From the IMG/VR virus record IMGVR_UViG_3300026097_000876, positions 62,001 through 126,000 of that record: DNA of 64,000 nucleotides, one strand, 5' to 3'. The notes under the pieces are model-generated. The model saw nothing but the letters and a program-made list of their open reading frames with translations, was not told the DNA's origin and did not search any database. Made by a program: the position numbers and the translations under genes. Numbering within the stretch: the first letter of the stretch is position 1; each line of letters opens with the position of its first letter. Shown one piece after another: positions 1 through 63,284 of this stretch. The DNA comes from a virus.

Positions 1-2
1 AT

Positions 3-368
3 ATGCAAAACTTTACACAAGCAGCACTTGCAGACGTGCAAGCACTAGTTAACACTTACGCTAATATTGCGGGCGATTACGAAGCAACGCTGTTATGCGG
101 CGTATGGCACTACATGTGCGACAGCGGCATATACACAGACGCATTTAGCGAAGCAGATGCGGAGTATGTAGAAGCGCACTACGACAACAATGTGCAATAC
201 TACAACGACGACGATTGCGGCTACACAGACGCATTTTATGCTGTAATATTTGACGACGATAAATTGCAATGCAATGCAGTGTTACAAGCACAAGATGCAA
301 TTGCAAACAAGCATAATTTGCATAACGAAGATGTTGCACGTATGTGTATGCAACTAGAAGCAAGTTAA
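3..368 (+). CDS. Small acidic early protein, function unknown
   Basis: A 121-residue protein with no recognisable family. It is rich in Asp, Ala, Asn, Tyr and Gln, strongly acidic (a run of three Asp occurs twice), and has no proline. The start is supported by similarity to the fourth gene at 1242, which begins with the same context (actatATGCAAAAC) after its leader; the promoter of this gene would lie just left of the window. It sits in the YC-free segment and uses AGC/AGT for every serine. Small acidic early phage proteins can be DNA mimics or inhibitors of host enzymes, but nothing here identifies a target. Confidence 0.75.
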   Translation: MQNFTQAALADVQALVNTYANIAGDYEATLLCGVWHYMCDSGIYTDAFSEADAEYVEAHYDNNVQYYNDDDCGYTDAFYAVIFDDDKLQCNAVLQAQDAIANKHNLHNEDVARMCMQLEAS

Positions 369-381
369 TTGTAAAAAACAC

Positions 382-410
382 TTGACAGCAGCATGCTTTT
401 GTAGTATGCT
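382..410 (+). promoter_or_regulatory. Early sigma-70 type promoter
   Basis: TTGACA at 382-387, 17 bp spacer, TATGCT at 405-410. It is followed by a leader ending in AGAGGGCA before the ATG at 449. Same architecture as the other early cassettes. Confidence 0.85.
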
Positions 411-448
411 GCTGCATATACACTAAAAAATTGCAAAGAGGGCAAACT

Positions 449-901
449 ATGCAATACAACAAGATTTTTACAAACTGCGCTGTAGTAAGCGACGAGAATT
501 TTGACTTGCTTACAGCAGAACAGCTAGAAGCATTTACACAAGCGGAACGTGCTTTTGTGCTTGTGTTTTTAGCAGACACACTTGCAAACTTGACACAGGT
601 TAACGCAGACTGTGCAGTAGAAAACGACAACTACTTTGTGCGACTAGCGGATGCGCAGGAGGTTATGCAAAATTTGCAAATGCTGTACGACACACTAGAC
701 GACAGCGACGACTGTACAAATATACAGTTTACGCTAGCGGATGCGGGTGCTGCGCTGTGTAGTTACGACACAGAATACAGGGAATGCATAGCGGAGCAAT
801 TTGAAGACGCATGCGACAACGCTGCTAAACTTGCAAAGCAAACTGGCAACACAAACGCAGACTACAGCACACTTGCTGTGCGTGTGCTGTGTAGTTATTA
901 A
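449..901 (+). CDS. Acidic early protein, function unknown
   Basis: 150 residues, no recognisable family. It is acidic (many Asp and Glu), rich in Ala, Leu and Thr, contains eight or so cysteines, and has no proline because the coding strand has no CC. The start at 449 is chosen because it follows the conserved AGAGGGCA Shine-Dalgarno leader; an upstream in-frame alternative codon would lie inside the leader. It is the second of three complete genes in the YC-free segment and has its own promoter. Composition resembles its neighbours, which suggests a common origin or common constraint. No function is proposed. Confidence 0.75.
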   Translation: MQYNKIFTNCAVVSDENFDLLTAEQLEAFTQAERAFVLVFLADTLANLTQVNADCAVENDNYFVRLADAQEVMQNLQMLYDTLDDSDDCTNIQFTLADAGAALCSYDTEYRECIAEQFEDACDNAAKLAKQTGNTNADYSTLAVRVLCSY

Positions 902-908
902 AAAGGGG

Positions 909-937
909 TTGACAAATGTGTTTATGTGTGCTACTAT
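909..937 (+). promoter_or_regulatory. Early sigma-70 type promoter
   Basis: TTGACA at 909-914, 17 bp spacer, TACTAT at 932-937, then a leader with AGAGGGCA before the ATG at 974. It lies immediately after the stop of the preceding gene. Confidence 0.8.
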
Positions 938-973
938 GTACACATAAACAATTAATTGCAAAGAGGGCACGCT

Positions 974-1177
974 ATGCAAAAACTAAACGAAAAAGCACTA
1001 CAGCAGTGGAACGCAACACGGCGTTTTATGCGTACACTAGACGAAGCGCAGCTGCATTTATTAATAGCGGCGCTAGACGGCGACAACAAGTTGCAAGTTA
1101 CGCAAACGCTAGTAGACAGCGCATATGACGCAATAGACGACAACATGCGCAAACAATATGCACAACACTTAAAATAG
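974..1177 (+). CDS. Small early protein, function unknown
   Basis: 67 residues, predicted largely helical (rich in Ala, Leu, Gln and Lys), with no proline. Start at 974 follows the AGAGGGCA leader. It lies entirely in the YC-free segment and is followed after 3 bases by the next promoter. Not recognised as any family. Confidence 0.7.
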   Translation: MQKLNEKALQQWNATRRFMRTLDEAQLHLLIAALDGDNKLQVTQTLVDSAYDAIDDNMRKQYAQHLK

Positions 1178-1180
1178 GGG

Positions 1181-1208
1181 TTGACAACTGTGCATATTGT
1201 GTTATACT
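1181..1208 (+). promoter_or_regulatory. Early sigma-70 type promoter
   Basis: TTGACA at 1181-1186 and TATACT at 1203-1208 (16 bp spacer), leader with AGAGGGCA before the ATG at 1242. Confidence 0.85.
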
Positions 1209-1241
1209 GTATGCACAGTTAAACAATATAGAGGGCACTAT

Positions 1242-1502
1242 ATGCAAAACACTACATACTATCCTGCCGCAGTCGCAAACGTTATAACACATTACGCACA
1301 AGCAATTGCACGTGCTAGTTATGACAGCGTAGTGGAAGCAGGCGACTACAGCATAACAGACAACTGTGCAAAAATACAGTACCTGTTGTCTGCTAGTGCG
1401 CAACACACCTCAGTTAAAAGTCTAGCAGTTGCCGCACTAAACAGCGCAGAGGATACAGTGCTGCGCGAATGCATGTACACACAATTAATGCAACACGCAT
1501 AA
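1242..1502 (+). CDS. Small early protein, function unknown
   Basis: 86 residues rich in Ala, Ser and Thr; not recognised. The start follows the AGAGGGCACTAT leader and repeats the ATGCAAAAC opening of the gene at position 3. The YC-free rule ends inside this gene: its third-to-sixth codons bring the first TC and CC, and only about ten YC dinucleotides occur over its length, so it is still depleted. A hairpin terminator follows. Confidence 0.7.
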   Translation: MQNTTYYPAAVANVITHYAQAIARASYDSVVEAGDYSITDNCAKIQYLLSASAQHTSVKSLAVAALNSAEDTVLRECMYTQLMQHA

Positions 1503-7187: not shown

Positions 7188-7217
7188 ATAAACAGTTAAA
7201 GCAAAGAGGGCAATCTT

Positions 7218-7502
7218 ATGTCGCAACGTCAAGCATTCGCAAATAACCACAACACACAACTCGCTCGCATAGTCAGCAAGCTCATCCGCAAGCACATTCC
7301 CACAAACCCACAGCTCACCACAGCATTCAATCAATTCAATCACAGCATGTATCTGCATCGTGTGTTGTACAAATATCATGTCAGCGCACTCAAGCACACA
7401 ATCCACAAGCCGCGCATGCAAGCCTATTTCGTTCGCATCCTGCGCAACAATCCACAAATCCTAGTCAACACCGCCCATACACCCACAGCATATCAAAAGT
7501 AA
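7218..7502 (+). CDS. Basic early protein with no Asp, Glu, Gly or Trp
   Basis: 94 residues, rich in His, Asn, Gln, Lys and Arg, not recognised. The plus strand from 7211 to 7507 contains no GA and no GG, so codons GAN, GGN and TGG are all absent and every Arg is CGN. This mirrors the first 1262 bases, where YC is missing instead. The gene has the standard early promoter, leader and Shine-Dalgarno, so the plus strand is taken as coding; an open frame also exists on the minus strand but has no promoter or ribosome site. The strong positive charge suggests nucleic-acid binding, by inference only. Confidence 0.7.
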   Translation: MSQRQAFANNHNTQLARIVSKLIRKHIPTNPQLTTAFNQFNHSMYLHRVLYKYHVSALKHTIHKPRMQAYFVRILRNNPQILVNTAHTPTAYQK

Positions 7503-7510
7503 AAAAGAGG

Positions 7511-8376: not shown

Positions 8377-8724
8377 ATGCAATTGGAACAACACAACATT
8401 GAACTAGCACACACTAACGCACTAGCAGCAGCTGAGGCAGCAAGCCAAGCGTTCGTGGACAAACACTTTGGTGGTAGAGACGCAGGCGCTTGTGGCTTTG
8501 CGCACGTAGCAGTGTTTGGTGTACGTGCTAACAGCAAGCTGGGCAAAGCACTAGAAGCAGTAACAGGAGCGCGGAAGTGTTATGATGGAGCATTCCAAAT
8601 CCGCAACACATGGTACCGTGGACAGAGTGTAGACGCAGCTGACGCAGGTGCGCAAGCATACAAGGACACATTCAAAGCACTAACAGGACTTGACAAAGTC
8701 TACGCAGCAAGTAGACTAGACTAA
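8377..8724 (+). CDS. Small early protein, function unknown
   Basis: 115 residues, Ala-rich with an N-terminal helix and a Gly/Ala/Arg-rich centre (GGRDAGACGFAHVAVFG). The plus strand is depleted of YC (nine in 348 bases), a weaker version of the pattern at the left end of the window. Followed by a terminator. No family recognised with confidence. Confidence 0.7.
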   Translation: MQLEQHNIELAHTNALAAAEAASQAFVDKHFGGRDAGACGFAHVAVFGVRANSKLGKALEAVTGARKCYDGAFQIRNTWYRGQSVDAADAGAQAYKDTFKALTGLDKVYAASRLD

Positions 8725-8864: not shown

Positions 8865-9047
8865 CTACACATCAAAGTGCAGTGTTACTGATTCAGGAAT
8901 ATAGTCTGCGTCAGTTACTTCGCCCATTTGCTCAAACAGTTCCGCACTGTGCAGTTCAAGTTCTTTTGCTGAGTAGTGCGAAAACGCTGTTACTTGCAAG
9001 TGTTGCGGTAGTGCTTGCAGCTGTGCTACTAGTTCGCTTACTAACAT
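8865..9047 (-). CDS. Small acidic protein, function unknown
   Basis: 60 residues if translation starts at 9047 (MLVSELV), after GGAGCAATACATA; a longer frame upstream would read through the promoter. Acidic, Leu- and Glu-rich. Its coding strand is also low in YC. Monocistronic, between its own promoter and terminator. Function unknown. Confidence 0.65.
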   Translation of the reverse strand: MLVSELVAQLQALPQHLQVTAFSHYSAKELELHSAELFEQMGEVTDADYIPESVTLHFDV

Positions 9048-9474: not shown

Positions 9475-9555
9475 AACGAACGTGTATGTACACAGTACAT
9501 TTATATGTGTCTAAACAAGAACCTCTTAGCTGTGTGCTAGGATAGCAAGTGTGGA

Positions 9556-9726
9556 TTACTCGCTGATGCTCCAATCGAACGGTGCGTCATACATGTGTAC
9601 ACCTTGACAGTCTTTGCGATGCTGTGTGTATTCGTCATAGTCATCAAACATGCTTCCACATGTACTACAGTGTACCCAACCCATCTTTTGATAGAACTCT
9701 TGTTTGTCTTTTGGTTTATCCGTCAT
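9556..9726 (-). CDS. Small zinc-finger-like protein
   Basis: 56 residues with the pattern Cys20-x2-Cys23 ... His36-x3-Cys40, a likely C2HC zinc site, within an acidic sequence containing three aromatic-acidic segments. Its start (9726) overlaps the end of the preceding gene by 11 bases. Comparable small zinc-binding proteins occur in T4-like phages as transcription or host-takeover factors, but no partner is identified. Confidence 0.65.
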   Translation of the reverse strand: MTDKPKDKQEFYQKMGWVHCSTCGSMFDDYDEYTQHRKDCQGVHMYDAPFDWSISE

Positions 9727-9985
9727 GTTGCTCTAGCTTAGGACTGTTACTAAAGAACTTTCTACTGTCAAGCGGATCACAGCCAGCTGCTTGTAGAGTG
9801 CGTGTGCCTTTTACTGTAAGCCATATCTCACCTGAGCGATTGGTTTCTAGATATCCCAGTGTAAAGTAAGGCTGAAGAGCTCGCATAGCATCTTTGTCTT
9901 TCTTGTCCCAGTGCCCGCTCTTGGCCTTGACAATCTTATCGTAGTCTTCTAGTGTTAGTTGAGGATTGTAATACTTTTCGTACAT
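9716..9985 (-). CDS. Small protein, function unknown
   Basis: 89 residues, mixed alpha/beta with basic centre (KAKSGHWDKKDKDAMRAL) and a segment GYLETNRSGEIWLTVKG that resembles a small winged-helix, so DNA binding is possible. Start follows AGGAGACAGC; a late-type promoter motif lies 16 bases upstream. Confidence 0.65.
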   Translation of the reverse strand: MYEKYYNPQLTLEDYDKIVKAKSGHWDKKDKDAMRALQPYFTLGYLETNRSGEIWLTVKGTRTLQAAGCDPLDSRKFFSNSPKLEQHDG

Positions 9986-10000: not shown

Positions 10001-10008
10001 ATATTTAG
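10001..10008 (-). promoter_or_regulatory. Late-type promoter motif (CTAAATAT)
   Basis: CTAAATAT on the minus strand, resembling the T4 late consensus TATAAATA, 15 bases before the ATG at 9985. The region 9986-10219 holds nothing else recognisable beyond repeated TTAGCG/CGCTAA words. Confidence 0.45.
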
Positions 10009-10219
10009 CGTTTGGTGCTGCGTTAGCTTGTAAAATTCTGCGCTAACGCTTCGCGCTTTTTAGCGTAAACCGCTCTGCGGCTGCGGGCCATAAATGGCTC
10101 TTAATTGCATGGGTTTTCGGTTTTGCTACCCAATATACCATTTAGTGGTTAAACGGCAATTTAAGGCTCATTTATGCTGGTAAAACCTTTATTTACGGTG
10201 TCTGTCGCACGGGTGATTT

Positions 10220-11023
10220 TTAGTCCTGGGTGTTGTTTTTTGGCCAATGCTGTGGGGGAATGGTATTGCCCGGCTGCATGGCCATTTGTACCAGTTGTTC
10301 ACACAGTCCCGGATGGGTCAGCTTGTGCTCCAGTTTGAGGAATCCAGTTTGAAAACGCTCGTGCTCTAGATCCAGTAGTCCAGCGCCTGGCTTGGTGAAT
10401 CTTTCCAACAGTAGGTCTGCAAACACCCGGTGATTGTGGGCGGTCATGTGATTGGCTCTGGTGTCAATGCTTTGACCGTACCACTGTTCAATGTCCCTAC
10501 AATCTGCAAACTCTCTGTCGCATATGCTCCAAGTCATGTTGCCCTTGCAGGGGTATAGGTCGGTCCAGTCTATGTTCATGGTAAACGCTGGAATAACCTG
10601 TAGGTTGATCTGTCGTTCAATACCTTTCACACGCAGGAAGTCAGTGATCATCTGTAGGCGAAGATCTGACAAGTCGTCTCTGTGCAGATGTTCATAGTAA
10701 CCGATCACAGCATCATATTTTTCTCTAGAGGCTTCTTTGACGTCTGCTGCATCCGCCGTGTTCAAAATGCTTACTAGGTTGCTGAGATGCGGTTCATCCT
10801 CAAAGAACCATTGCCTTGCGGGTTCAGTAAGAAATACTATCACACAGTCACCAGGCTCATGCGCATCGTCTCTAAATGTTTTGAGAATCCACTCGTTGCT
10901 GGTTCCTGCACAGGCCTGTATGTAACAGTGCGATGTTTTCAACCTGGGTGCCAACAGTCTCTGCCATCCCCAATCCACTTTCCAGTCTGTGGCAAAACTG
11001 TCTCCGTAGATCCACAGCTTCAT
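10220..11023 (-). CDS. SGNH-hydrolase-like protein
   Basis: 267 residues. The N-terminus (MKLWIYGDSFATDW) carries the GDS block of SGNH/GDSL hydrolases; an Asn block (AGTSNEW) and Gly follow as in block II, and a C-terminal HP-type block (KLTHPG) is present. Such enzymes act as esterases or acyltransferases on carbohydrates; the substrate is unknown. The start overlaps the stop of the nitrilase-like gene upstream by 4 bases, so the two are coupled. Two other SGNH-like proteins are encoded at 21054 and 33198. Confidence 0.65.
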   Translation of the reverse strand: MKLWIYGDSFATDWKVDWGWQRLLAPRLKTSHCYIQACAGTSNEWILKTFRDDAHEPGDCVIVFLTEPARQWFFEDEPHLSNLVSILNTADAADVKEASREKYDAVIGYYEHLHRDDLSDLRLQMITDFLRVKGIERQINLQVIPAFTMNIDWTDLYPCKGNMTWSICDREFADCRDIEQWYGQSIDTRANHMTAHNHRVFADLLLERFTKPGAGLLDLEHERFQTGFLKLEHKLTHPGLCEQLVQMAMQPGNTIPPQHWPKNNTQD

Positions 11024-27190: not shown

Positions 27191-28019
27191 TCCAGTACGC
27201 TTCTGTTCTATTTACCATTAAATCTTTAGACAAACTTTTTCCAGAATTTTTTCGACCACCTTTCATGTGATCAATCCATTTTCCAAGTTCGCTATTAATT
27301 AACGGGTGACCACCTCCGCCTGTCTTAGCGGTGTTGTTGTAAATATTAGCACTATAATCGTATGACTGGAAATCTTTATATTTGTTCAATAAATGTCCGA
27401 ACACATAACTGTCATGCCATTCTTCTAATGTGAAGATTCCGTTGTCTGCATCTTCATACATAAGTTCAAAATCCTCTAAGAAACTATGACACACAGGATG
27501 ATTTAGATTCATTCCGTAAAACCCACACTCCGGCCATGTTTGTGATCCTTTGCCTCGGCCAACGTATGTAATGTATGCACTATTAGGAAGCAATTCTTTA
27601 AACTGTTCATAACTCCAGTCACTGTGTACATATGTATCCGCATCCATCCATACACACCAGCCCGTAGACCGCGCACAAGCGTCGTACACAGCATAAGTTT
27701 TGTTAGCGAACCGTATAGCGTCCCATTTAAATTCTTTGTGCCAGTCGCGTGGCCTACGTGCTTTAATTGCATCAGGAGGGATGCCATTTGCCTTAGGATC
27801 ATCTTTCCATCGTTCTTTAAATGCTGTTAGTTTAGGTAGATGTTCTTTTGCATCTAGTACAGTGATACGATCGTCATCTACAACAGGTGTACAATCTTCT
27901 GTATATACTAACAATTCAATACGTGAATCTACACGTTTACTAAAACTATCTAAAAATCTTTGACCATATAATTCTAATCCAGGCTTGTGAAATGTTGTTA
28001 CTACTGTTATTTTTTCCAT
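27180..28019 (-). CDS. Glycosyltransferase with GT-A fold
   Basis: 279 residues from MEKITVV at 28019. Early Rossmann-like strand (ITVVTTFHKPG), DxD motif in VWMDADTYVH, and acceptor-side Gly/Trp segments (GSQTWPECGFYGMN). A nucleotide-sugar glycosyltransferase; donor and acceptor unknown. Overlaps both neighbours by about a dozen bases. Confidence 0.75.
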   Translation of the reverse strand: MEKITVVTTFHKPGLELYGQRFLDSFSKRVDSRIELLVYTEDCTPVVDDDRITVLDAKEHLPKLTAFKERWKDDPKANGIPPDAIKARRPRDWHKEFKWDAIRFANKTYAVYDACARSTGWCVWMDADTYVHSDWSYEQFKELLPNSAYITYVGRGKGSQTWPECGFYGMNLNHPVCHSFLEDFELMYEDADNGIFTLEEWHDSYVFGHLLNKYKDFQSYDYSANIYNNTAKTGGGGHPLINSELGKWIDHMKGGRKNSGKSLSKDLMVNRTEAYWNEV

Positions 28020-60311: not shown

Positions 60312-61809
60312 AAACATTACTATTGTAGGTGGAGGTTCAGCCGCTTGGCTAGCAGCTACTTACATACAAAATAATCACTGGGACTTACCCATTACTGTAA
60401 TCGACAAAGAAGTAGGTAATCCTATAGGAGTGGGCGAAGCAACGGTGCTTACATTCCCACATTTTTTAAGAAAATGTGGTATAAATTTGCCAGAATGGTT
60501 TAGAAATATTGATGCTACATACAAGTCTGGCATTGAGTTTCCTCATTGGAAAAGACCTAACAATAATGTTTGGCATCCATTTTACCTAAATAGAAGTTAC
60601 TTTGCACAAGGATGTACAGCATATGACCTTTGGGCACAAAAGCAAGATCTAGATTTTAGAAAAACAGCACTTCCGACTTATAACGTTAATATGAATAACA
60701 AACTTGATATGTGGGGAGCATTTGAAACCCTTGCGTATCATATTGACGCTGGAAAACTTGTTACAGAGTTACAAACGATTTGTGGACAAAATGTTAATGT
60801 AATTAAAAGCGATGTTGTAAAAGTAAACAAAGATGGTAACAATGTAACTAGCGTTGAACTTAAAAACGGTGCTGTACATGAAAGTGACTTTTTTATCGAC
60901 TGTACAGGATTTGCTAGTATTCTTAAAGAAGCTGACCGTGTAGAGCTATTAGGTGAAGGAAGATTATTTACAAATGCTGCTGTTGCCGGACATATTCCGT
61001 ATGAAGATTTTGAAAAAGAATGTACTCCGTATGTAAAATGTCCTGCTGTTGATCACGGTTGGATCTGGAAGATACCTGTGCAATCACGCATCGGATCAGG
61101 ACTTGTATTTAATAAAGATATTACAGACCCAGAGGAAGCAAAACGTTATTTCTGCGAACACTGGGATAATCGAATAAAACCAGAAGATCTAAAGTTAATT
61201 GACTGGGTTCCTTATTACAGTAAAAACTTTTGGGAAGGTAACGTAGTTTCAATTGGACTAAGTGGCGGATTTATCGAACCGTTAGAGTCTACAGGGCTTG
61301 CTAGTATGACCACTGGTGTTGAAAAATTAATGGATATGATTCCTCAATATGCTTATACTGATGCTAATGTAGAAACTTATAATAGAGAAATGGAAGTTTG
61401 GTATAATGATGCTGTTGATTTTGTTAACAGCCATTATGCTGACACAGAATGGGATACACCTTTTTGGAATTATGTAAAAGAAACCCATGTAAAATCAGAA
61501 AAACATTTATGGTATGAAGATTGGTTAAAAGATCCACAACGTAAGTTTTATACTCCGGTGCAGTCACGCACACTGTTCCATCCGCCAAATTGGCATTTGT
61601 GGTTGGTACAAATGGGGTATCCAGTAAATGTAGATCTTAACTATATGCCTCCGCAAGAAATAGAGTTTCTTTTGAGAGATTTTCAACTGGCTGAAGAAAT
61701 TAGAATGCACACTAGTCAAAGTCATATAGATGCTATTGAATCAACTAATCTTGGATTAGACTGGTTAGTATTAGCACAGTCTAGGGGAGATAGGGGCCAA
61801 TTGGTATGA
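60298..61809 (+). CDS. Flavin-dependent tryptophan-halogenase-like protein, copy 1
   Basis: 503 residues. FAD-binding GGGSAAW at residues 11-17, GVGEATV, the catalytic Lys76 in ATYKSGIEF and the WxWxIP motif (HGWIWKIP). Such enzymes need a flavin reductase and chlorinate indoles; phage copies may have other substrates. Followed by a second copy with 4-base overlap. Confidence 0.9.
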   Translation: MKQIKNITIVGGGSAAWLAATYIQNNHWDLPITVIDKEVGNPIGVGEATVLTFPHFLRKCGINLPEWFRNIDATYKSGIEFPHWKRPNNNVWHPFYLNRSYFAQGCTAYDLWAQKQDLDFRKTALPTYNVNMNNKLDMWGAFETLAYHIDAGKLVTELQTICGQNVNVIKSDVVKVNKDGNNVTSVELKNGAVHESDFFIDCTGFASILKEADRVELLGEGRLFTNAAVAGHIPYEDFEKECTPYVKCPAVDHGWIWKIPVQSRIGSGLVFNKDITDPEEAKRYFCEHWDNRIKPEDLKLIDWVPYYSKNFWEGNVVSIGLSGGFIEPLESTGLASMTTGVEKLMDMIPQYAYTDANVETYNREMEVWYNDAVDFVNSHYADTEWDTPFWNYVKETHVKSEKHLWYEDWLKDPQRKFYTPVQSRTLFHPPNWHLWLVQMGYPVNVDLNYMPPQEIEFLLRDFQLAEEIRMHTSQSHIDAIESTNLGLDWLVLAQSRGDRGQLV

Positions 61810-63284
61810 AAATTGTAGTAGTCGGCGGCGGCACGGCTGGATGGCTTGCCGCATTAATGATTTCAAAAATACGTCCTGAACATGATGTCACTGTTATTGA
61901 AAGTAGTAAAATTGGCATTGTCGGTGCCGGGGAAGGTAGTACCGGAACACTTACAAATATTGTACAAAACGAAATGTGGAATCTTGGCTGTAACGAACAA
62001 GATTTTATCAAAGAGTGTGATGCTACAATCAAATTAGGAATTAAACATATAGGTTGGAATAAAGATCCTAAAAAATATTACATCGGTCCAATTGACGGAA
62101 CACCGACTTCTAACGACAGAGCCGATATTATTTTTCAACATGCCTTAGGTTACAGAGACGAAAATTTATTACATATTTCAACAGAGCTTGGTTATAAAAT
62201 TCATCATAATAAAAATAGTTTCGTTGAGACTGCTGGTAATCACGCATATCATTTTGATGCTCATAAAGTAGGAAAATACTTTAAAAAAGTTAGTAATACT
62301 GTAAAACATATTGACAGCGAAGTAGAACATGTTATACTAGACAGTGAATCAGGTAGAGTAAAAGAATTAAAATTGTCAAATGATGAAATAGTCCAAGGCG
62401 ATATGTTTATTGATGCAAGTGGCTTTCATCAAGTTTTAATGAAAGCTGTTGGAGGTAAATGGAAAAGTTATAAAGAAAATTTACCAGTTAATAGTGCATT
62501 ACCGTTTTTACTTCCATATGAAGAAGATGAAGTTATTGAACCTGTTACAAATGCATGGGCACAAAAAAACGGTTGGTGTTGGCAAATTCCAACAAAAGAA
62601 CGTCGAGGATGTGGATATGTATTTTGCGATGATTTTGTAACTCCTGATCAAGCACATGCTGAACTTGAGCAAACAATTGGTCGTAAAGTTGACCCAATTA
62701 GATTATTAAAATTTGATAGCGGAAGACAGGAAAAATTGTGGGTTAAAAATGTATTGTCTATCGGATTGTGTGCTGCGTTTGCAGAGCCGTTAGAAGCAAC
62801 AAGTATTCACACAACAATTATTCAGTTAAAACATTTTGTATTTGGTTGTTTAGGAGTTGATGTAGACGATACTTGTAATCCTGCACAAGTTGATAATTAC
62901 AATCAACAAAATGGTCATTTATACGACAATATGAAAGACTTTCTTGTTGCGCACTATACGTGTGGCAGAAATGATTCTGAATTTTGGAAACATATCGACA
63001 GCGGTGCAACAATTACTCCGTTTGTACAATCAATACACGAGATCTGCAAGCACAGGATGCCTAACTCAACTTTATTCCCACGCCAAGAGGGAAGTGCCGG
63101 ATGGCCTTTATGGAGTTTTGTTCTTGCAGGTACAGGAAAACTAACAGATACAATTGCTAGACAAGAACTTAAATTTAATCATGATGAAATGTTAAGCGAT
63201 AGTGCATATCAATATCACACAAAAGAACATCACTCAATGAGTGAATCATTACCGGATAATACCAACTACATAAAAGGCATTTAA
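61806..63284 (+). CDS. Flavin-dependent tryptophan-halogenase-like protein, copy 2
   Basis: 492 residues with GGGTAGW, GAGEGSTG, Lys76 in ATIKLGIKH and WxWxIP (NGWCWQIP). Diverged from copy 1, so probably a different substrate. The stop overlaps the start of the kinase (TAATG). Confidence 0.9.
   Translation: MKIVVVGGGTAGWLAALMISKIRPEHDVTVIESSKIGIVGAGEGSTGTLTNIVQNEMWNLGCNEQDFIKECDATIKLGIKHIGWNKDPKKYYIGPIDGTPTSNDRADIIFQHALGYRDENLLHISTELGYKIHHNKNSFVETAGNHAYHFDAHKVGKYFKKVSNTVKHIDSEVEHVILDSESGRVKELKLSNDEIVQGDMFIDASGFHQVLMKAVGGKWKSYKENLPVNSALPFLLPYEEDEVIEPVTNAWAQKNGWCWQIPTKERRGCGYVFCDDFVTPDQAHAELEQTIGRKVDPIRLLKFDSGRQEKLWVKNVLSIGLCAAFAEPLEATSIHTTIIQLKHFVFGCLGVDVDDTCNPAQVDNYNQQNGHLYDNMKDFLVAHYTCGRNDSEFWKHIDSGATITPFVQSIHEICKHRMPNSTLFPRQEGSAGWPLWSFVLAGTGKLTDTIARQELKFNHDEMLSDSAYQYHTKEHHSMSESLPDNTNYIKGI

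Follow-up and report, generated by a model that had tools for sequence, protein, structure and literature searches.

The window analysed here is a stretch of 64,000 nucleotides that corresponds to bases 62,001-126,000 of a 261,806-base virus record, and its left end carries four small genes, each with a promoter of its own, where the hairpin found 3' of each of the first three genes overlaps the promoter of the next one (Table 1). The proteins of this cluster and of its relatives are small and mostly acidic, and those encoded in the segment considered below contain neither proline nor UCN-encoded serine, as the initial annotation had stated. No match above cut-offs was obtained for cluster proteins in Pfam, NCBIfam, PHROGs or PDB. 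The gene 2 product is predicted to be all-helical (pLDDT 77), and its predicted fold had no structural relative below E 1. A tblastn search of GenBank phages with three cluster proteins gave no match, a search of genome contigs for relatives found none, and DNA-pattern scans for the common terminator hairpin and the leader returned only contigs that were already known.

Table 1. Coordinates of the cluster, of further window features and of related loci (positions in the window unless another record is named; YC, TC or CC; GR, GA or GG).
Feature	Position	Strand	Remarks	Basis
YC-free segment	1-1262, plus 96 record bases left of the window	+		dinucleotide count
Gene 1 promoter	immediately left of the window	+	TTGCTT-17-TATACT	sequence
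Gene 1	3-368	+	121 aa, acidic, 0 YC	codon-shuffle null
Gene 2 promoter	382-410	+	TTGACA-17-TATGCT	sequence
Hairpin 3' of gene 1	386-414	+	12 bp, perfect, overlaps promoter 2, no YC or GR in stem
Gene 2	449-901	+	150 aa, family founder, in all five clusters, 0 YC
Gene 3 promoter	909-937	+	TTGACA-17-TACTAT	sequence
Hairpin 3' of gene 2	919-950	+	13 bp, overlaps promoter 3
Gene 3	974-1177	+	67 aa, 0 YC
Gene 4 promoter	1181-1208	+	TTGACA-16-TATACT	sequence
Hairpin 3' of gene 3	1186-1220	+	12 bp, overlaps promoter 4
Gene 4	1242-1502	+	partial depletion, 10 YC vs 19-20 expected (ratio 0.53)
Mirror gene	7218-7502	+	small, basic, no GA/GG on sense strand, 45 sense-strand YC, YC-free template
Intermediate gene	8377-8724	+	9 YC vs 22 expected (0.41)
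Intermediate gene	8866-9047	-	6 YC vs 15 expected on own sense strand
QueE-like gene	L013 7885-8784 (record 253,885-254,784)			sequence reading, tblastn
FolE-like gene	L013 10028-10714 (record 256,028-256,714)			sequence reading
YC-free runs, L015 (G001)		+	1,258, 428 and 775 nt
YC-free run, L015 (G001)		-	779 nt
YC-free run, L021 (G002)			911 nt and more
YC-free run, L022 (G003)		+	1,495 nt
YC-free run, L022 (G003)		-	484 nt
Cluster, L024 (G004)			about 1.6 kb, 8 exceptions
PA5oct islands	27587-27701, 239311-239514, 253397-253542, 264925-265144, 267264-267557, 277061-277223
GGCCCCGCTG motif sites	L015 8454, 8896; L024 1155; L021 8029, 8428, 8636, 12095; L022 8682, 8722, 11280; L003 18729, 18769

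The peculiarity of this segment is that the dinucleotide YC (TC or CC on one strand; GR, which is GA or GG, is YC on the opposite strand) is missing from its plus strand. A recount of positions 1-1262 gave neither TC nor CC among 256 C, where about 110 YC are predicted by composition, and the absence reported in the initial annotation is certain. The other 14 dinucleotides are each present (base counts A433, C256, G285, T288), and the lack of YC is the sole absolute k-mer rule. Read in the 43.9-kb contig L014, which has 0 differences to the window phage across 8.9 kb, the full YC-free run measures 1,358 nt (record positions 61,905-63,262), with its left end inside the promoter region upstream of gene 1. 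The right end had been placed at 1262-1264, and the rule indeed stops at 1263 (TATCCTGCCGC), but the depletion tapers on through gene 4, which holds all 10 YC of positions 1251-1500. In the remainder of the 261,806-base record the YC-free runs on either strand are at most 183 nt long, with one exception of 297 nt on the minus strand (window 7210-7506). YC is normal in the late genes, a comparison that had been singled out from the start, and genome-wide GA/TC and GG/CC are near expectation, the depletion being confined to few units and mainly to one strand.

When every protein sequence is held fixed, codon shuffling leads one to expect 18, 29 and 12 YC in genes 1-3, while 0 are observed in each (z -4.7, -6.4 and -3.7, respectively), and in the reversed-sequence control, based on the CY rule, the maximum score among all phages scanned was 12.4 vs 140.8 for the window segment. 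Chance was rejected on these grounds and on the per-gene bimodality described below; an assembly artefact was rejected because the segment is identical in a second record and the rule is found in four diverged ones. Avoidance of a restriction site or CRISPR PAM, or else an effect of codon usage or protein composition, is the least probable of the explanations considered, and highly improbable. YC does resemble some short PAMs, and the composition of the proteins is in line with such an effect; however, an ordinary restriction system or PAM is expected to act on either strand and genome-wide, and so to deplete both strands of the whole genome, whereas here a dinucleotide is lost from the sense strand of few units, and genome-wide depletion of the target in both orientations was not found. 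This part of the initial proposal does not account for the pattern. The codon or protein effect is contradicted by an exclusion which extends over codon boundaries and into non-coding DNA and persists with the protein fixed.

Deamination of YC had also been suggested initially. The assumption here is that a cytosine deaminase turns each YC of the non-template strand into YT. Deaminases typically act in such a context, TC being preferred by DddA and YCY by a BaDTF2 toxin (PMC7901873), and non-template polarity would match the single strands exposed by transcription. At fourfold sites after a pyrimidine, however, the share lost by C in the window phage goes to A, similarly in L015: the GCA share of Ala rises from 0.46 to 0.57 and the ACA share of Thr from 0.41 to 0.71, while the T share falls from 0.26 to 0.10 in Thr ACN and from 0.21 to 0.16 in Ala GCN. 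Moreover, C content is not lowered in the YC-free segment, GC and AC being raised. An APOBEC/SsdA-type hypermutation footprint, with T enriched where C was lost, was thus not found, and because C-to-T conversion predicts a rise of T, a deaminase acting as mutator is contradicted and was judged very improbable.

Relatives of gene 2 are present in four other virus contigs with 65, 52, 43 and 46% protein identity, and all four of them sit in clusters that obey the YC rule, the homologous clusters having a length of 0.9-1.6 kb. The clusters of L015 and L022 include minus-strand genes, at which it is the minus strand that is YC-free, and the rule therefore tracks the sense strand. When the genes in the early region of each of the five phages are taken one by one, observed/expected YC is bimodal: about 20 cluster genes have values of 0.00-0.12 and their neighbours values of about 1.0, with few intermediates such as gene 4 and the gene at 8377-8724; the ortholog of the latter in L015 has 5 YC vs 15 expected (0.33), and the orthologs of gene 4 have 2 YC in L021 and 0 in L024. 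A longer hidden motif was rejected, since the residual YC of intermediate genes have no significant 3' preference. The gene 2 ortholog pairs differ at 132-154 nt, including 27-42 synonymously changed codons, where random substitution would leave 27-36 YC, yet the number of YC is still 0. Thus, strong selection maintains the exclusion, and, judging from the sequences compared, it is very likely that whole units are under selection against sense-strand YC. Among the causes listed in the initial annotation, selection against a nuclease motif, or the need for a modification, is supported as a class by a rule that is absolute, kept through more than 100 substitutions and all-or-none per unit.

The rule had been described for coding regions, leaders and promoters, and it does hold in promoter spacers, leaders and ORFs, as well as in intergenic DNA and in the 3' region with its hairpin. 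The -35 to -10 spacers of the first genes of clusters contain 20 RC and 0 YC vs 71:67 for ordinary promoters with TTGACA (n = 33; p about 1e-5, in a small and partly homologous sample), or 12 RC to 0 YC without the conserved last C, while upstream of -35 of the same genes there is no YC depletion (22:24). At the other end of the unit, a strong hairpin (z below -2) lies within about 60 nt 3' of 20 of the 26 cluster genes vs 24% of 59 ordinary early genes (p = 8e-7), the mean z being -4.2 and -1.0, respectively. These cluster hairpins usually have a perfect stem without a U-tract, overlap the next promoter and differ in sequence between genes; their stems contain 1 YC and 4 GR in 420 steps, ordinary hairpins 27 and 35 in 252 steps. 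Because the promoter dyads are mostly found behind an upstream gene, they are read as 3' hairpins of that gene, and hairpin promoters for single-stranded DNA were rejected on this ground. Unstructured mRNA was rejected as the cause as well, since the predicted folding of window 1-1000 is stronger than that of shuffled sequences (z -4).

The 3' hairpin at each cluster unit could instead mean an RNA-stability theme. In such an explanation a YC-specific endoribonuclease, either a host abortive-infection enzyme or a phage shut-off enzyme, is active in infection, and only YC-free messages with a 3' hairpin resist decay and get translated. The sense-strand polarity, the all-or-none behaviour and the inclusion of leaders and 3' UTRs agree with it, the excess of strong hairpins is what selection for message stability would produce, and a preference for certain bases is described in reviews of Cas13 collateral cleavage, mostly for U/pyrimidine in the case of Cas13b (PMC8209922). 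However, perfectly paired stems and untranscribed promoter spacers are also without YC, and the avoidance of sense-strand GR, and of TGR in G004, is not predicted by a YC ribonuclease, which makes this explanation rather unlikely, though it carries more weight than the others set against our reading.

Termination by Rho requires several YC within a C-rich unstructured stretch, and YC-free transcripts would escape the Rho-dependent termination of foreign genes. The likeness to rut sites lies in the same dinucleotide on the same (sense) strand and in a role against foreign transcription. The motif matches exactly, as the primary RNA-binding site of Rho contacts repeats of 5'-YC dimers (PMC9160355), and Rho is reported to counter phage gene expression (PMC3526286); YC is indeed avoided in Rho-accessible RNA, and the sense-strand polarity fits. 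Nevertheless, a factor that reads C-rich unstructured RNA with repeated YC should not be affected by an isolated YC in a translated ORF, whereas the exclusion is absolute and bimodal and the overall C content is not lowered; the avoidance is not limited to transcribed, unpaired RNA, given that stems and promoter spacers are YC-free too, and that of GR is left unexplained. Escape from Rho is therefore distinctly unlikely.

The opposite strand follows a weaker form of the rule. GA and GG persist in the window segment, as had been noted, but their O/E is only 0.69 and 0.54, and TGA/TGG number 11 vs 36 expected. With the protein fixed, nearly every cluster gene has less sense-strand GR than expected, most of them with z of about -2 to -4, and TGA serves as stop codon in 0 of 26 cluster genes vs 16 of 59 ordinary early genes. 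In G004 (L024, positions 325-2011) TGA and TGG are absent from the sense strand with the same ends as the YC rule, and consequently YCA is missing there from both strands. Two G001 genes, 9509-9751 (minus strand) and 10006-10257 (plus strand), are without any YC or GR. The polarity is reversed in the mirror gene at 7218-7502, where the absence of GR is confined to the ORF; its ortholog in L019 (1-234) is GR-free as well.

A cultured relative is indicated by the neighbouring AAA+ gene of the T4 nrdC.10 family, for which the best GenBank match is Pseudomonas phage PA5oct and kin. In this jumbo phage (MK797984), YC and GR are scarce or absent on both strands in at least six islands, 100-290 nt long, which score 12-21 where the reversed control has a maximum of 11.6; the island at 267264-267557 is located upstream of a tRNA array, with two TTGCAA-17-TATAAT promoters. 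Neither YC-free units nor islands were found in the 57 kb of T4 scanned, nor islands in the 50 kb scanned of Vibrio phage nt-1.

We tentatively propose, at somewhat less than even confidence, that whole transcription units have been purged of the YC/GR DNA target of an agent that blocks expression. The agent would act at the step 5'-YC-3'/5'-GR-3' on DNA, or on RNA polymerase reading the DNA, and any unit hit by it would lose expression; one site may suffice, as the zero-tolerance sense-strand rule spans whole units. The hits that count would be those on the side of the sense-strand C and template-strand G, and on the template strand the fatal feature would be G followed by a purine. The few small early genes that are needed while the agent acts would have been purged from promoter core to 3' hairpin, and neighbour genes not needed during its action would have been left with ordinary YC. 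Candidates are a modified G in the GR context, at which host RNA polymerase would be stopped, and, alternatively, a YC-directed nuclease, or a deaminase whose products undergo lethal repair, of either host or phage origin. An agent working at the level of DNA or polymerase, to which we give a little under an even chance, is favoured over one acting on single-stranded RNA because stems and promoter spacers obey the rule and the template strand obeys a weaker one. That the cluster products counter this agent is only a guess. Against the proposal it should be said that YC is normal in adjacent early genes whose promoters are similar, so that timing or need would have to differ between these and the purged genes, and that the opposite polarity of the mirror gene, in the ORF only, speaks against it.

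We know of no mechanism which predicts a strand-polar, absolute loss of a dinucleotide over units that is selected across diverged phages; no relevant paper turned up in a literature search on the strand-specific avoidance of dinucleotides by phages, and, no counterpart having been found, the phenomenon is apparently new. In phage T7 a type III restriction site is avoided with a strand bias, the target being kept in one orientation only; unlike here, it concerns a site of 5-6 bases and the whole genome, not a dinucleotide in few transcription units. Phages with 7-deazaguanine-modified DNA, such as CAjan, 9g and nt-1, are comparable with regard to preQ0 synthesis genes, which occur in the window phage, its relatives and PA5oct: FolE and QueE were read from sequence in the window phage (QueE being confirmed by tblastn to annotated QueE), QueC is found in G003 and QueD in G002, and FolE, QueD and QueE are annotated in PA5oct. 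G modified in the GR context would turn sense-strand YC into a template lesion. The difference is that no match to a transglycosylase (TGT/DpdA or DpdA2) was found here, in records that may be incomplete and with a search that may miss divergent families, and that nt-1, whose DNA is reported to hold dPreQ0 (PMC6884629), is without islands in the part scanned. A HhH-GPD/endonuclease III-like ORF was observed near the QueE- and FolE-like genes (record 255,544-255,981). In T4, EndoIV (DenB) and Alc distinguish unmodified-cytosine DNA from phage DNA, which likewise is a discrimination of DNA depending on C context; unlike in T4, no DenB homolog was found in the present phage, which, like the missing transglycosylase match, weighs against the proposal, and YC-free units are absent from the scanned stretch of T4 itself. 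On single-stranded DNA, DenB is described as specific for dC (PMC12405507).

The chances are about equal for and against an undescribed host or phage system which senses bare 5'-YC/GR and, during infection, silences the DNA carrying this step, with a lineage including PA5oct that keeps target-free units in order to act in that period. The units would then be the genetic footprint of an unseen agent, from which one can read its target (YC, and most strongly YCA in one of the phages), the strand on which a hit matters and the limits of what needs protection. Since PA5oct is laboratory-grown and an RNA-seq-based annotation of it exists, it offers a direct test bed, and the same scan could reveal such footprints in further phages.

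Two minor observations concern the surroundings and the interior of the clusters. Several DnaA-box-like repeats (TGTGGATAA and variants) lie just left of the YC-free segment in L003 19300-19720 (record 61,300-61,720) and, by their sequence, mark a possible candidate replication origin; a linkage of the rule with replication origins was rejected, as no DnaA-box-like repeats were seen in the sequence to the left of the L015 cluster. A non-coding motif, (A)GGCCCCGCTG(T/C)(A), recurs in the window phage and its relatives, and in the clusters of L015 and L024, which otherwise lack YC, several of the few exceptions belong to this motif.
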